DNA of 48,266 bases from Chitinophagales bacterium (GTDB taxonomy: Bacteria; Bacteroidota; Bacteroidia; Chitinophagales; UBA2359): contig JAEUUX010000056.1 of assembly GCA_016787295.1 (NCBI GenBank), forward strand, positions 1-48,266, given 5' to 3'. Each line of letters opens with the position of its first letter. Positions within the stretch are counted from its first letter, which is position 1. Below the pieces are notes generated by a model. It searched no databases. It was not told the origin of the DNA and saw only the letters and a list, made by a program, of their open reading frames with translations. The position numbers and the translations under genes were made by a program. Shown piece by piece: positions 28,592 to 47,256 of this stretch.

Positions 28592-30844
28592 TTAGTGTGT
28601 TACCATCAATTGGCTTTGATAGGTTTGTTGGGGAGTGGTGATGACAATGGTATAGTAGGCTTCGGGTAGTTGGTAGGTGGGGACTTGTGCCATGCCTATA
28701 TGGTTGTAACTTTCCCAAACGCGTCTGCCAATAGCATCAAAAATAGCTATATCAAATTTCGCGTTTGCCTCATATTTGACCCACATCATATCACGAGCAG
28801 GATTGGGATAGAGTAACATTTCTGTAGGCAGTTGATTGTTTATGCCGACGGCATAAAGTCCTACTGTTGCTGCTTGTGTGCAGTTATTGACATCGGTGAC
28901 GGTGACGGTATAGTTGCCTTGGGGAGCGGTGAGGGTATTAGTAGTTTGTCCGTTGCTCCATACAAAAGTATAGGCACCCACGCCACCTGTTGCCATAACC
29001 GTTGCGCTGCCGTTTTGGGTAGGGCTTGGCGGTGTGGTTTGGAAATCGATGACAATAGCGGGCGGTTCGGTGATGGTGACGGTGCTTGTCGCTCCGCAAC
29101 CTTGTTCGTCTGTAACGCTAATGTCGTAAGTGTCAGCAGTGCGTCCTTGTACAATAAAGATGGACGACATCAAAGGTGGTCCTGTGAGGGTATTGACGGC
29201 ATAGATGTAGGGAGCATCGCCATTATTGACATGGATAGAGATAGACCCTGTATTGCCACCTGCACAAGCCACATTTTGAGCACTAACATCGATATTAAAA
29301 TCGATACATTGGTCAAAATGATTGTCATAGATACCAGTGTAGTGTGTTCCCATGTATGCGCCAAAAGCAAGGTTGGGTGGAAGGGTAGAACCTAAGTTCC
29401 AACGTTCGATTTTGTAGCCACTTTCGGCATAAGGCGGCTCGCTAAAACTTGCGCTATTGACATGATGCGCATATACCATATCTAAATCTTCGTCGCCGTC
29501 CATATCTCCTACCCAAGGGGTGGAAGCAAAGTTGGTACCGGGCTGTCCGCCACCATTGACGGAATAAGTGGTATCGTTGGCGAAGTCGTGGGCTAAGATA
29601 TTGTGCTTAAACACGCCATTTTCTACCACATTCACACCCGTTAGGAGTTCGTCGCGGTAGTCACCATTCAAGTCGACGGCAACACCAGTCGTATATTGAA
29701 AAATACCGATGGTGTCTTGCCAAATAACCGTGCCATTGGCTCCGTCCATTGCCACTTGGATAAAGCGGTTGTAGGAAGGAGCAACGCCTTCGCCCACAGT
29801 CACAAAGACATCGGGAACATAGTCGGCAGTGAAGCGTCCAACGGTGGCGGCGGCACTTGTTTCGGTACCGGGCAAGATATGTTGCCACATAATTATGTTA
29901 GTGCTGCCATTGATAGCGGTTGTTTTGCCGTCAAAACTGTTGGCAATAATGTCTTTTATGCCATCGGCGTTGAGGTCGGCGATGGTGGGCGGAGCAATGA
30001 AGCCTTTTGTGCCAAAAGCAATAGGAATGCTGCTCGAAAGGTCTTCGTTTCGGACTGCCTCCAACGACACACGCCAGAGGTTGCCGCTGCGCGTTTCGCC
30101 TCCTGTACCATAAATGACCTCTAAGTTGCCATTGCCCAAAAAGTCATGCACCACAGCCGAGCAATAGGTTTCTTTGCCGTCGGGAACTTTGGCAGTGGCA
30201 ATGATTTGTCCGTTTTGGGATTCGATGATGTACAACTTGCCGACGGGACGGTTGAGGGTGTCAAAAGATGGAATGTCGTGGTTGCCGCCATTAGCTACCA
30301 AAATATCGGGTGTTCCGTTGTTGTTTTGGTCGGGAATGGGTTGTGGGTTGTAGAAGTTAAAAATACTGTCTAACTGCGAGTCCATCGTGTCACCTTGCGG
30401 ATAAAACTGCCACAAGAGTTCGCCTGTCGAGCCGTTGATGGCGTTGAGTTGTCCGCGTCTGCCGCCAATAAGCGCATCTTTGTGACCATCGTTGTTGATG
30501 TCCATGAAACTTGCGCTGCCATAGATTTGGTTCCAAGCATACAGGCCCCACATTCTTTCTCCTGTTTCGCCGTCGTAGGCGCAAATGGTGTTGGTGCGTC
30601 TTTGTCCGTCGGAGCCGCCGCCAATAACAATATCCAAAATATTGTCATTGTCCAAGTCGACAAGGTGTGGTGACGAAATACAGCCCATCGAATCGGTATT
30701 GTTTTCCCACAATTTGACGGGATTATATTGTGCATACAATTGTTGTCCTCCTACAAACAGTAGGAAAGCAAGAGACAAGGCAGCAAGTGTGTTGGTGGCG
30801 GAGCTATGCTGCGAGATAGCTACCGAAGAAAAAACTTTTTGCAT
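28592..30844 (-). CDS. Secreted FG-GAP/SprB-repeat protein with T9SS sorting domain
   Basis: The ATG at 30844 gives 750 residues and a normal N-terminus (MQKVFSSVAISQHS..., hydrophobic LAALSLAFLLFVGGQQLYAQ). The ATG at 30922 would add 26 residues unlike a signal peptide. Residues about 45-470 form an FG-GAP/VCBS or PQQ-like propeller with calcium-type loops: LVDLDNDNILDIVIG, DINNDGHKDALIGG, DQNNNGTPDILVANG, DLNADGIKDI, DLNGDYRDELL and MDGDEDLDMVY. Two SprB-like repeats follow (CAGGNTGSISIHVNNG..., GAYTFVWSNGQTTNTL). The tail (LLYPNPARDMMWV, IFDAIGRRVWES, YYTIVIT) is a T9SS type A sorting domain. Its promoter is a near-duplicate of that of the methyltransferase gene upstream. Confidence 0.9.
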   Translation of the reverse strand: MQKVFSSVAISQHSSATNTLAALSLAFLLFVGGQQLYAQYNPVKLWENNTDSMGCISSPHLVDLDNDNILDIVIGGGSDGQRRTNTICAYDGETGERMWGLYAWNQIYGSASFMDINNDGHKDALIGGRRGQLNAINGSTGELLWQFYPQGDTMDSQLDSIFNFYNPQPIPDQNNNGTPDILVANGGNHDIPSFDTLNRPVGKLYIIESQNGQIIATAKVPDGKETYCSAVVHDFLGNGNLEVIYGTGGETRSGNLWRVSLEAVRNEDLSSSIPIAFGTKGFIAPPTIADLNADGIKDIIANSFDGKTTAINGSTNIIMWQHILPGTETSAAATVGRFTADYVPDVFVTVGEGVAPSYNRFIQVAMDGANGTVIWQDTIGIFQYTTGVAVDLNGDYRDELLTGVNVVENGVFKHNILAHDFANDTTYSVNGGGQPGTNFASTPWVGDMDGDEDLDMVYAHHVNSASFSEPPYAESGYKIERWNLGSTLPPNLAFGAYMGTHYTGIYDNHFDQCIDFNIDVSAQNVACAGGNTGSISIHVNNGDAPYIYAVNTLTGPPLMSSIFIVQGRTADTYDISVTDEQGCGATSTVTITEPPAIVIDFQTTPPSPTQNGSATVMATGGVGAYTFVWSNGQTTNTLTAPQGNYTVTVTDVNNCTQAATVGLYAVGINNQLPTEMLLYPNPARDMMWVKYEANAKFDIAIFDAIGRRVWESYNHIGMAQVPTYQLPEAYYTIVITTPQQTYQSQLMVTH

Positions 30845-30947: not shown

Positions 30948-30984
30948 CCAAACCGTCCCTACTATGCAAGTAAAGACGGTTTGG
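30948..30984 (-). promoter_or_regulatory. Stem-loop in the leader of the FG-GAP protein gene
   Basis: CCAAACCGTC (30948-30957) and GACGGTTTGG (30975-30984) are perfect 10-bp arms about midway between the promoter at 31053 and the ATG at 30844. It could be an attenuator or mRNA-stability element; a short T-run follows on the minus strand. Confidence 0.4.
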
Positions 30985-31052
30985 GAATGGTTGATAGGAT
31001 ACATAATTGTTAGCAAATTGAAAAATAAGCGGGTATTGGTGGGATTTTCGCA

Positions 31053-31091
31053 CAAAGATACGGCAAATTTTGTGGGATTCAAAATTTGCCG
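31053..31091 (-). promoter_or_regulatory. Palindromic promoter module, copy 1 (drives the FG-GAP protein gene)
   Basis: On the minus strand TTTG (31080-31083), a 19-bp spacer and TATCTTTG (31053-31060) form a full consensus promoter. The spacer and -33 box lie inside an inverted repeat with 11-bp arms, 31061-31071 and 31081-31091 (CGGCAAATTTT / AAAATTTGCCG), 9-nt centre GTGGGATTC. Copy 2 at 33232-33270 is identical apart from one base in the -7 box. Such a palindrome is a natural operator. Confidence 0.7.
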
Positions 31092-31132
31092 TGGCATAGT
31101 TTCTTTGTTTGGCGATGATGAATGTTTGATAC

Positions 31133-33190
31133 TTACAAACTACCCTCTATCAGTTGGTTAGTTCTTTCTTTAATTTGTTTTTTAAGTTGGATAATAGTTT
31201 GTATTTCGTTGCTGATGCGTGCCATTTCGTTCTTATCTTTGTGGATAGGCAGTTGCAAGTCCATGATTCTATTACCCAAAGTCGATAAGGTGGCTTGTAC
31301 AAAAGTAAGCATTTCAACTTGTTTTTGTACGATATTGGCATTTAGTAGGTAAAAAAGATAAAAAGGATTTAGTTTATCTGGTTGTAGCACTCTTATTTTT
31401 CGCAAATGGCTTTGGATAATACATTTAGTATCGTTTTCGGTCAAAATGGCACTTCTGCCAATCAAAAATGTACCATCATTGACAAACAAAATGTCGTTTT
31501 CTCTTACATCTTGCTGTTTTTTGTATTGTTGATAAATTTCTTCGGCTACCGATTTGACAGGGTTGGCTTTGATTTCCCAATTTACAATATCAGTAGTGCG
31601 AACGAAAGGCACATCACCTGTTCCATAATACTTTGAGCCTATTTCGTTGCCTCTTTTGATTTGCAAAATGTTTTTCTCGACCAAATCTCCCACTTTTACT
31701 AAATCATACAAGCCGCTTTTTTTGATTTTAAAAAGCGTTTGTTTTACTTCGGGTTTATAGGTTTCGGGGATATAAATGTGGTTGTCGGTTTCTGCGGTAG
31801 GTACTGCAAAACCCAAAACGCTCTCCTCTTCCAAATTTCCGTTTAAGAATTTTGTAAAGTTTTGCGCAATTTCGGGCGTTTCGTCATCAAGGATTTTGTT
31901 GCTTTGTTGGTCAAGAATGTAGGAGCCGTCTTTGTTAAACTTAAAAGTCGGTTTTCCATTTTTGTCGTGTCCTATATTTTTGGCAATTGCCATAAAAACT
32001 TGGTTGTGGTTATTGGGTTTTTTCTCTAAGAAAACCACACTTGTTTTGGTATGCGTACTGGGTTGAAAGGTTTCTTGCGAAAGAGAAACAATACCTATAA
32101 TGGAGCAGTATTTTTTTATGTATTCCCAAACATAACGGTCAGATGGATTGCCAAAGACACCTTCGGGCAATACAATGCCTGCTCTTCCTCCGTTTTTCAA
32201 AAGTTGTATAATGCGCTCGATAAACAAAATTTGAGGTGGCTGTTTTTCTCTTAGTTCTTTGGTGATAAAATACTTACTGTTGTTGCTTGTTATGCCGTTT
32301 GTTGTGTTGTTTTCGTTCCAGAAATAACCTAATTCGTATTGTTTCAACAATTTTTCGCCAATTACAGGAATTTTTGCCCCAAAAGGTGGATTTGCCAAAA
32401 TCAAATCAAAGGAATTTAATTGAATTTGGGCTTGGGTTTCGGGTTTCCACAAAGCAGGTACTTCAAGACTGTTCTCGCAAAAAATATGGTACTCACTTTC
32501 GCCCAAAATGCTTAGGTATATCTTTGCCAATTTAGACAAAAACAAATCTTTATCAATACCCGAAATGTAATAAGCACTCGCTTTTTGTTTGATGAGTTGT
32601 TGCAAGATGTGGGCAATAAAACCGCCCGAACCGCAAGCAGGGTCAATAATTCTTTCGCCCGATTGTGGTTGCAACACGTCTATCATCATTTGTACAATGT
32701 TGCGGGGTGTAAAAAACTGTCCTTCTCCACCACGAAAGGAAGTGCCTATCAATTCCTCGAAAGCATCGGCAATAATATCGCGGTCGGCATTCAAAATAGA
32801 ATGTTCTTCCATTTTGGATACAATAAAAGACAAATCACTCGCTTGTATTTCTAATGCTTCATCGAGTTCAAAAATGTCGGAATATTGATTTTTAACATTT
32901 TCGAAAAGCGTAAAAAGTCTTTTTTGAAAGTCTTGCAAACTTTCGTTAGGACGGTTTGCGAAATTGACTAACTGCTCATGGTCTGTGTGTTTTTCATCAT
33001 AAATTTTGCAAAAAAGCAACCGCATGATGTTTTGAGCAATTTTTTCGTCTCTTGTTATACCCGTAACATTACCTGCAAAGTAATCGCGAATTTCCCTAAA
33101 AATAACTTTTAGGTTATTGATTGGAGATAACTGGTGTTTGTAGATAAGTTTTTCGGGTTTATTAATTTCGGCAGCAACAAAAATATCCAT
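31133..33190 (-). CDS. N6-adenine DNA methyltransferase fused to half a type I specificity subunit (HsdM-HsdS)
   Basis: This 685-residue protein opens with an HsdM N-terminal helical domain (about 20-150). A SAM-binding methylase core follows, with motif I DPACGSGGF (183-191) and catalytic motif IV NPPF (267-270), preceded by GGEGQFFTPRNIVQMM, typical of HsdM. From about 495 to 685 it reads as one target-recognition half of HsdS: YDLVKVGDLVEKN, GTGDVPFVRTTDI, ENDILFVNDGTFLIGRSAIL, FYLFYLLNANIVQKQVE and a closing helix with IQLKKQIKERTNQL. No nuclease motif is seen in it and no hsdR lies in the window. It may be an orphan or BREX/type I-like methylase that dimerises to make a full recognition unit. 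Promoter module copy 2 lies 42 bp upstream, and copy 1 lies just downstream. Confidence 0.9.
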   Translation of the reverse strand: MDIFVAAEINKPEKLIYKHQLSPINNLKVIFREIRDYFAGNVTGITRDEKIAQNIMRLLFCKIYDEKHTDHEQLVNFANRPNESLQDFQKRLFTLFENVKNQYSDIFELDEALEIQASDLSFIVSKMEEHSILNADRDIIADAFEELIGTSFRGGEGQFFTPRNIVQMMIDVLQPQSGERIIDPACGSGGFIAHILQQLIKQKASAYYISGIDKDLFLSKLAKIYLSILGESEYHIFCENSLEVPALWKPETQAQIQLNSFDLILANPPFGAKIPVIGEKLLKQYELGYFWNENNTTNGITSNNSKYFITKELREKQPPQILFIERIIQLLKNGGRAGIVLPEGVFGNPSDRYVWEYIKKYCSIIGIVSLSQETFQPSTHTKTSVVFLEKKPNNHNQVFMAIAKNIGHDKNGKPTFKFNKDGSYILDQQSNKILDDETPEIAQNFTKFLNGNLEEESVLGFAVPTAETDNHIYIPETYKPEVKQTLFKIKKSGLYDLVKVGDLVEKNILQIKRGNEIGSKYYGTGDVPFVRTTDIVNWEIKANPVKSVAEEIYQQYKKQQDVRENDILFVNDGTFLIGRSAILTENDTKCIIQSHLRKIRVLQPDKLNPFYLFYLLNANIVQKQVEMLTFVQATLSTLGNRIMDLQLPIHKDKNEMARISNEIQTIIQLKKQIKERTNQLIEGSL

Positions 33191-33231
33191 ATTTTTTAGA
33201 TTTGGTTGTTATAGCGGTTTATTTACTTACA

Positions 33232-33270
33232 CAAAAATACGGCAAATTTTGTGGGATTCAAAATTTGCCG
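33232..33270 (-). promoter_or_regulatory. Palindromic promoter module, copy 2 (drives the methyltransferase-specificity gene)
   Basis: TTTG (33259-33262), 19-bp spacer and TATTTTTG (33232-33239) on the minus strand. The inverted-repeat arms 33240-33250 and 33260-33270 and the 9-nt centre are the same as in copy 1. The -7 box ends 42 bp before the ATG at 33190. Self-regulation by a DNA-binding product, or control by a shared regulator, would fit but is not shown. Confidence 0.7.
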
Positions 33271-33397
33271 TGGGATAAGGATATGTAACTTTTGTTGAAT
33301 GAATTGGTATGTTGTATTTTATTGGATAATAGCACCTCATTGGGGATTTTGAAAGACAATAATCTATTATTTTTATCTGCACATGCGTACTTTAAAT

Positions 33398-33436
33398 AAA
33401 AAAGCCTCAAAAAGCGAGTTTTTGAGGCTTTTTTTA
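33398..33436 (-). terminator. Terminator of the ppiD-like gene
   Basis: AAAAGCCTCAAAAA and its complement around a GCGA loop end in T-runs on both strands, about 40 bp after the ppiD stop. Confidence 0.85.
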
Positions 33437-33477: not shown

Positions 33478-35616
33478 TTAACGCATTTTGTAACGATTAT
33501 CTTCTACGTTCATCATTTTTTTGATAGCTTGGAACAAACCATAATCTGCCATTTGCTGCATAGGCTGTACCGTTTGGGTTTTGATAGCCGACAAGTCAGC
33601 GGCGGGTGTGGCTTCCGCAATCGTAATAGGTTGGATAAAGAATACCCCTGTATTGCCGATGATAGGTTTAGATACTTCGCCTTGTTTCAAAACAGAAGCG
33701 GCGGCTTGCACTTTGGGTTCGTTACCAATACTTTCTATTTGTTTGGCATTAAAAGTAACACCTTTAACACTATACATTTGTTGTCCGCTTGCTGCTGCAA
33801 TTTTGCTCATATCTTTGGCATTGCCTATTTTTGTCAATATTTTTTCGGCTTTTTTCTCCTTAATTACTTCGGCTTCCACTCTTTGGCGAGCGTCTTCGAC
33901 ACTTGCCAATCCTTCTTTTTTGGCAGCACTTAAGGCAGCTACGACATAACTACTGCGTTTTCTGCCATCAGGAAGGTTTTCGTCCACTTGGAAAGTAGTA
34001 GGAGATGTTTCACCTACATTGGCTTGGTTGAATGCCCAAGATACAATGCTACCTGCACCGTTTAGTTGCTCTACGCGATAAGCATTTTTGGTTAAATCTT
34101 TGCCTTCGCGCACTTGTAAACCTTGTTTTGCGGCATTGGCTTCGAGGGATTTCAAATCGCGGTTGGCACTTACAAAAGCTTGTGCATTGTTATAGATAGC
34201 ATTTACTGTTTCGTCTGATGGGCTTACCATTTTGCTCAAGAAGCCTACTTTCACGCCTTCTTTGCTACCACCTGTATTGGTGATTTGCATGATATAATGT
34301 CCGCCACCTAAGTCGGTTTTGAAAACATCACCATTTTTATAGCGATAGAAAAGGTCATAGCGCACTTGTTCGGGTAGTTCTTGAACGCTTGACTTCACCC
34401 AACGTTGGTTGCCACCTTGTAATTTAGCTTTGGGGTCGGCAGAGTGTTTTTTCGCTAAGGTATCAAAATTGGCTCCGCCACGAATGGCAGCGATAATACT
34501 GTCAGTCGTTTTTTTGTTGGCTTCGGAGGTTGATTTTCCAATAGGCAAAATGATTTCGCGGATTTGTAGCGAGTCTGCTACTGCGCGGCGGTCTATGATA
34601 CGTCCCACTTTGTAGGTGCCATTTTCGAGGAAAGGACCTACTGTTGAGCCTATCGGCAATTTAAACAAAGTGTCTTTTACCATTGGTGACAAAGCCTCTT
34701 TCATTTGATAGGTACTGTCAAAAGGTGTGTCACTTTCGCTAAGACGAAGATAATTGCCTACATTTGCCAAAGCAGCATTTTTGAAGCCATCTAAGCGCTC
34801 TGAAATAGCTTTTTGTGCTGCTGTACTGTCTGCCATAGAAGCATTGACAGGAAAACTCACAAACTTCACGCTACGGCTTTCTTCTTGTTTGAATTGTCCG
34901 GCGTGTTTGCTAATATAAGTTTTCAAGTCAGAGTCGGTGACTTTAACTTCATTGTCGTTAACAGTAGTATAAGGAACTAAAACGTAATTAATGTCTGCGC
35001 TACGCGTTTGGTCGGCATTAATTTTCTCGGCATACCACTTAGGCACATAAATACCTTTTTTCACCAAATTGGTATATTTGCCGCGTTCGGTTTCGGCAAT
35101 TACACCTTGCTCAAATTTTGACCATTGTTGCAATTTATCTGCATTTTCTGGTTTTTTGAGGTCTTTGATGTATTGTTCCAATTTAGCTTTGCTAAATTGT
35201 CCATTTTCTTGAAATCCTTCCGAACTTTTAATAGCGGAGTGAAGATTTTCACCGCCTGAGTATAGCAGTTGCGCCAATTCATCATCGGTAACAGTTATGC
35301 CCGATGCGTCGTAGATTTTGCGTTGTATGATTTCTTCGACGTATTGATTCCACGCTTGTTCAGAGGCTTGGTTGCGCATTTCGTCCGAAATTTCCATTCC
35401 GTTGCGCTGGTAGCTGTCTAAAGCGTCTTGTGTTTTTTGTTGGTAGATTTGTGGCGAAAGTTCTACATCACCTACTTTGCCCAAAACGTTGTTGTTGCTA
35501 CGAAAAGGAGAGCCACTGCCAAATGCATCCATCAATAGGAACATGACAATAGAAAGCCCGATTAAGCCCACGGCTATCGTTGCTCCTTTATCGCGTATTT
35601 GTCCAATTAGAGCCAT
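33478..35616 (-). CDS. ppiD: PpiD-like peptidylprolyl isomerase / periplasmic chaperone
   Basis: The 712-residue protein carries one N-terminal membrane anchor (ATIAVGLIGLSIVMFLLMDAF, about 13-32), then a SurA-N-like chaperone region starting VLGKVGDVELSPQIYQQK (about 43-60). A parvulin-type PPIase domain lies at about 355-455 (REIILPIGKS, ANFDTLAKKHSADP, GGNQRWV, LGGGHYIMQIT). A second, degenerate parvulin-like part follows (about 570-690). This is the Bacteroidota PpiD/SurA-N architecture: an inner-membrane-anchored chaperone at the Sec translocon helping newly exported outer-membrane and T9SS cargo fold. It has a strong promoter with an overlapping palindrome at 35646-35677. Confidence 0.92.
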   Translation of the reverse strand: MALIGQIRDKGATIAVGLIGLSIVMFLLMDAFGSGSPFRSNNNVLGKVGDVELSPQIYQQKTQDALDSYQRNGMEISDEMRNQASEQAWNQYVEEIIQRKIYDASGITVTDDELAQLLYSGGENLHSAIKSSEGFQENGQFSKAKLEQYIKDLKKPENADKLQQWSKFEQGVIAETERGKYTNLVKKGIYVPKWYAEKINADQTRSADINYVLVPYTTVNDNEVKVTDSDLKTYISKHAGQFKQEESRSVKFVSFPVNASMADSTAAQKAISERLDGFKNAALANVGNYLRLSESDTPFDSTYQMKEALSPMVKDTLFKLPIGSTVGPFLENGTYKVGRIIDRRAVADSLQIREIILPIGKSTSEANKKTTDSIIAAIRGGANFDTLAKKHSADPKAKLQGGNQRWVKSSVQELPEQVRYDLFYRYKNGDVFKTDLGGGHYIMQITNTGGSKEGVKVGFLSKMVSPSDETVNAIYNNAQAFVSANRDLKSLEANAAKQGLQVREGKDLTKNAYRVEQLNGAGSIVSWAFNQANVGETSPTTFQVDENLPDGRKRSSYVVAALSAAKKEGLASVEDARQRVEAEVIKEKKAEKILTKIGNAKDMSKIAAASGQQMYSVKGVTFNAKQIESIGNEPKVQAAASVLKQGEVSKPIIGNTGVFFIQPITIAEATPAADLSAIKTQTVQPMQQMADYGLFQAIKKMMNVEDNRYKMR

Positions 35617-46961: not shown

Positions 46962-47000
46962 CCTCCAAATGCTATTATCGTAAGTGACAAATAGTGACTC

Positions 47001-47256
47001 TACTTTTTTGCTCACCCAAAAAAGTAGCAAAAAAGGGTGTTCTTTTTCGAGTGGATTCGTCCGGCGTGCTGTGGTCTTTGCTTAATTTTGTGGTAGCAAG
47101 CAAATTAGTAAGTATTTTGTTTGTTTTATCGTATTAGCTACCACAAAATGTAGGCAATCGTTGAGGCAATTTATCATTCTTTGTCTGTTTTTTCGTGACT
47201 TCGGTGCCTCAACGACCGACTACAGCACTATTTCGGAGAACGAAAATAGTGTAGGC
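47001..47256. ncRNA. Candidate structured RNA locus: chain of inverted repeats
   Basis: Non-coding in all frames. TACTTTTTTG (47001-47010) can pair with CAAAAAAGTA (47017-47026). An overlapping alternative, CTTTTTTGCT (47003-47012), pairs with AGCAAAAAAG (47026-47035), and the two are mutually exclusive. Then come a 13-bp stem (47085-47097 with 47137-47149, ATTTTGTGGTAGC), an 11-bp stem (47158-47168 with 47205-47215, TCGTTGAGGCA) and a stem CACTATTT..CG with one bulge (47226-47251). A TAATTTTG box at 47083-47090 could be a -7 element, but no -33 is clear. Direction and even transcription are unknown; it could equally be repeat debris. Confidence 0.35.

Follow-up and report, generated by a model that had tools for sequence, protein, structure and literature searches.

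Paired palindromic modules with features of both a terminator and a promoter flank a putatively foreign orphan DNA methyltransferase gene in a Chitinophagales bacterium

A short intergenic hairpin, specific to one lineage and dispersed through the genome of a Chitinophagales bacterium, appears to combine two signals: its RNA form putatively terminates the upstream gene, and its DNA form contains the promoter of the downstream gene. We favor this composite reading with moderate confidence. As RNA, a stem followed at once by AUUUUUG would end the transcript of the preceding gene. In the DNA, the inner palindrome would provide the spacer and the -33 region of a promoter for the housekeeping sigma factor, with the same T-rich tail serving as its -7 box (TAnnTTTG), so that the next gene would start there. 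Two copies, modules a and b, lie in the window (the whole stretch of 48,266 nucleotides that was analyzed, contig JAEUUX010000056.1). Module b would start an orphan methyltransferase gene, while module a would close this gene and offer a start for the FG-GAP gene that follows. That termination and transcription initiation actually take place at the modules, and in which order the events described below occurred, we infer from the sequences. If correct, one short stretch of DNA between genes serves to stop one and start the next, and has spread through a single Bacteroidota lineage, providing a natural set of constructs for how termination and initiation share bases and suggesting how a foreign orphan methylase comes to be expressed.

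Both modules face genes on the minus strand. Module a (31051–31098, minus strand) is located 3' of the methyltransferase gene and 5' of the gene for an FG-GAP/SprB-repeat protein with a type IX secretion (T9SS) sorting tail (28592–30844, minus strand). It consists of a 13-bp inverted repeat (31060–31092) and the tail TATCTTTGTGC, with the -7 box at 31060–31053. Module b (33230–33277, minus strand), a 13-bp inverted repeat (33239–33271) followed by TATTTTTGTG, is located 48 nt upstream of the start codon of the methyltransferase gene and downstream of ppiD (33478–35616, minus strand). As the original prediction held, segments 31053–31091 and 33232–33270 have the same orientation and differ at one of 39 bases; the likeness extends to 48 bp, 46 of which are identical between the two modules, and a match of this type was found in none of 100 shuffled windows. 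The predicted palindrome is present, and its perfect arms measure 13 bp around a loop of 7 nt, longer than the 11 bp first described. The promoter layout was also found as described, on the minus strand, with TTTG separated by 19 nt from TATCTTTG or TATTTTTG. Each hairpin has a folding energy of -16.5 kcal/mol (z-scores of -4.1 for module a and -5.6 for module b).

The modules belong to a larger family. The exact palindrome occurs at five places in the 5.42 Mb host genome, with near copies at several others, and a covariance model trained on ten copies detects about 30 sites with E below 0.001. Eleven copies form the core of the family, and about 20 others are divergent. The model has 48 matches in the host genome versus 5 weak matches in 39 relatives, and the exact palindrome, sought in 40 genomes, was present in the host genome only. 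An Rfam search gave no match near a gathering score, and a literature search found no description of such an architecture. The core copies follow the pattern ACGGCAAATTTTG-N7..11-CAAAATTTGCCGTATTTTTGYG, with loops of 7 to 11 nt that are free to vary in sequence. Stem positions are paired in 98% of cases, and three pairs are changed on both sides, a level reached in just 2 of 500 shuffles. Further arm variants are CGAC/GTCG, CGCC/GGCG, CACC/GGTG, and CAGA/TCTG. Neighboring and downstream genes are unrelated, and include prmC, yqeY, an exonuclease, endonuclease III (nth), dnaK, a DUF3800 protein, a 2H phosphoesterase, and a class B1 metallo-beta-lactamase. For the latter gene (subclass B1; L235, 3812–4644), the palindromic module is the apparent promoter.

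This distribution bears on the earlier suggestion of a shared operator tying the methyltransferase to the surface protein. The same palindrome is found at about 11 core and about 20 divergent sites next to unrelated genes, which makes a dedicated methylase/surface-protein operator unlikely; the genome-wide search largely returned what the original prediction had named as evidence against itself, a generic repeat present dozens of times next to unrelated genes. A broader version, in which the palindrome is bound by a dimeric regulator that covers the -33 box and spacer and governs a regulon including both genes, would draw on the perfect symmetry, the placement over the spacer, and the presence of about 11 core sites near promoters. 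However, with loops ranging between 7 and 11 nt, the half-sites are displaced by one third of a helix turn; base changes in one arm are compensated in the other, which would not be expected for a single regulator that reads the sequence; the downstream genes lack a common function; and the sites avoid divergent promoters. We regard such an operator as highly improbable. If the composite reading is right, the special link between methylase and surface protein falls away, and the modules are gene punctuation. Two other candidates were rejected. The single arm GGCAAATTTTG is not widespread as expected of an uptake sequence (23 matches, 13 of them arms of known modules), and the RYYYAAC and GTTRRRY core boxes of integron attC sites are absent from the sequences, as read by eye.

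The housekeeping promoter of Bacteroidota has a -33 TTTG and a -7 TAnnTTTG box (PMC7366714, PMC9723704). Both window modules and most other copies have a TAnnTTTG box with a TTTG about 19–20 nt upstream, as in a sigma-A promoter of this phylum; the exceptions are C29a, which has TATTTTG, and C180, which has a longer spacer. The left arm of the palindrome covers the -33 region and the right arm the spacer, and the -7 box, nearly always TATTTTTG, follows immediately past the stem. Using a matrix derived from 177 promoter-like sites of the host genome outside the modules (training median 23.2), module a, in front of the FG-GAP gene, scores 23.6 and module b, in front of the methyltransferase gene, 16.6. 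The best rival site upstream of the FG-GAP gene reaches 7.1. The abutting TAnnTTTG scores between 10 and 28 in all ten modules scored, whereas 99.9% of random positions fall below 3.1. The consensus of TAnnTTTG sites upstream of genes, CG-TAYYTTTG-YRC, was obtained from 0.87 Mb of sampled stretches of the host genome with simple ORF calls, which also provided the background statistics; with positions given relative to the T of TA, it has a TTT near -24 and A-runs near -28 and -9, all matched by the modules. The fit to host-genome sites thus supports the original view of the modules as promoters, at which transcription is predicted to start. They resemble the housekeeping promoter in the -7 box, in the spacing of copies with a 7-nt loop, and in flanking bases that agree with the genome consensus. 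In contrast to ordinary host promoters, a perfect palindrome abuts the TAnnTTTG, an arrangement present at just 16 of 1744 sites, mostly of the module family. The PM2 motif of Bacteroides thetaiotaomicron, with boxes centered at -10 and -30, is found apart from the canonical sigma-ABfr promoter at oxidative stress genes (PMC7366714). It is likewise a near-palindromic promoter motif from the same phylum, but the modules keep the canonical TAnnTTTG.

The genomic context of the copies points to a second role at the end of genes. Ten of the eleven core copies lie between co-directional genes and one (C250) between convergent genes; divergent gaps hold none of 10 core copies, compared to 77 of 168 ordinary promoter-like sites (Fisher P 0.005). 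The distance from stop codon to module is about 10–105 bp in all but one of the eleven, the exception being module b, about 200 bp past ppiD. TA and TTTG are separated by TT in at least 9 of 11 copies, compared to 11% of ordinary promoters, which places a U-run directly 3' of the stem. Since the copies are related by descent, these counts of context and tail are suggestive and not fully independent. Stem folding energies range from -16 to -26 kcal/mol across the copies, and a terminator scan lists both window modules, which have the stable stem and U-tract of intrinsic terminators; the tail of module a is the weaker one, and module b is the one farther from a stop codon.

These features could also be explained if the modules were plain intrinsic terminators, with a T-run that merely resembles a TAnnTTTG box and true promoters located elsewhere. 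Hairpins after stop codons are indeed abundant in this genome (0.87 Mb contains 113 whose arms measure 10 bp or more, including 34 that lie between convergent genes), C250 lies 12 nt past a stop codon with no gene downstream in its direction, and the TT bias is what a terminator would show. Nevertheless, the tail TATTTTTG-Y-G fits the promoter consensus beyond the T-run, and upstream of both window genes no other sequence matches a promoter nearly as well as the modules do. A group of sister palindromes, CCACGCCAAATTTTGC...GCAAAATTTGGCGTAACTTTGC, also argues against this explanation: they stand in front of a multicopy gene and end in TAACTTTGC, a promoter tail that has the box and lacks the U-run. 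We therefore consider plain terminators unlikely. Together, the positional bias, the TT spacer, the promoter fit, and the sister group favor the composite over a terminator or a promoter alone. Several observations stand against the composite reading as well. The U-tract is short (TATTTTTG), and the TATCTTTG of module a is weak as a terminator tail. Upstream of module b, ppiD is already followed by a terminator of its own, a two-way, A/T-flanked hairpin (33398–33434). A strong hairpin (30948–30984, minus strand; -24.4 kcal/mol), which may be a second terminator or a leader structure, separates module a from the FG-GAP start codon, about 216 nt from the -7 box. Sister palindromes are found at L240 (272–321 and 3754–3803), L241 (1373–1422), L242 (6948–6995), and L243 (8349–8398), along with several broken copies; the multicopy gene behind them starts with MPPEVLTIAEIKAQYPDQWVLVG.

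The gene between the two window modules (31133–33190, minus strand) encodes a 685-residue N6-adenine DNA methyltransferase fused to one S-type target-recognition domain. The N6_Mtase domain (Pfam, 2e-37), the NPPF motif, and a C-terminus matched by PADLOC specificity models agree with the original assignment as a methyltransferase-specificity gene, and the protein has the features of a type IIG or orphan N6 methyltransferase with an S domain. Its best relative, from Raineya, is 86% identical, and other relatives are scattered over several phyla, while a search of 19 family members found no close ortholog (best 38%). ppiD in the two genomes with the closest methyltransferases is just 25–27% identical. 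Judged from these comparisons, the methyltransferase gene is foreign to this lineage. Nearly all of its close relatives (about 16) have a 333-residue endonuclease-type gene directly upstream; the corresponding gene in L074 matches DraIII, a restriction enzyme. The window methyltransferase is 58–86% identical to those encoded behind an endonuclease-type gene, DraIII-like in one case, but unlike these operons it lacks the endonuclease gene, and module b stands in its place. We regard the window gene, considered together with the locus in L086 (4997–8058), as an orphan derived from a DraIII-like restriction-modification pair. No modules were found beside the methyltransferase relatives in other hosts.

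The two window modules are 94% identical over 47 aligned nucleotides, including the loop, whereas the second-closest pair of the family is 85% identical. That modules a and b are closer than any other pair suggests a recent local copy or gene conversion, and it is plausible that one module was duplicated locally, around the methylase. We infer that the methyltransferase gene lost its operon promoter and uses the copied module; the foreign gene would have lost its partner endonuclease gene together with that promoter and was probably given the module of a neighbor. The alternative in the original prediction, insertion of the methylase at a promoter with duplication of the promoter on both sides, is possible insofar as the window pair is the most alike and the gene is foreign, but no relative is close enough to provide an empty site. 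Synteny around ppiD is not kept in the nearest family genomes, where neither orthologous neighbors nor an empty site were found.

More generally, the modules could mark the boundaries of mobile single-gene cassettes, with recombination between them moving or capturing genes and leaving direct repeats on both sides. Modules flank single genes as pairs far more often than by chance (of 22 sites, 7 pairs are no more than 4 kb apart, against 0.34 expected), although local copying can account for this excess. The bracketed genes look mobile: the orphan methyltransferase of the window, a C29 protein with homologs on cyanobacterial plasmids, and a PDDEXK_2 nuclease (C66) between repeats of the sister palindrome. 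Against such cassettes, many copies occur singly next to housekeeping genes (yqeY, nth, dnaK), the two loops of most pairs are not alike, the genome lacks a Y1/RAYT transposase, no empty site was found, and the methyltransferase occurs without a module in other hosts. Cassettes of this type seem quite unlikely, and it is very improbable that the modules are exchange points that capture foreign single genes, such as the orphan methylase and the nuclease-like gene, supplying terminator and promoter and leaving direct repeats.

REP and REPIN sequences are short, dispersed intergenic palindromes that are lineage-restricted and often follow stop codons (PMC3733652, PMC3116915). The modules share these properties, but are few in copy number and carry a conserved one-sided promoter tail. 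A PF01797 search of the 98%-complete genome gave no match to the Y1 transposase (RAYT), with control genomes positive, and the module ends, which read ACGG.../...CCGTATTTTTG, carry no GTAG or CGTC tag. A REP/RAYT system was therefore rejected. The Correia elements of Neisseria are likewise dispersed palindromic repeats of small size, and promoters and terminators can be present in them. They are longer transposon derivatives with terminal repeats, a structure not seen in the modules.

Three further arrangements were observed. In L027, two modules (1260–1309 and 1847–1896) surround a 136-residue gene and, like the window pair, have a common downstream flank, GTGCCTCAAAAACA. In L244 (7986–9114), a gene for a PDDEXK_2 (Rpn-type) nuclease is framed by two direct repeats, each about 58 bp long and containing the sister palindrome. 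Another palindrome, CTACTTTTTTGGGTGAGCAAAAAAGTAG, forms a second dispersed family in which the flanks AATCACCATTTG and CAAAAAAAGGTGTT are conserved; it is present in the window at 47000–47027 and also in L036, L037, L054, L055, and L066.
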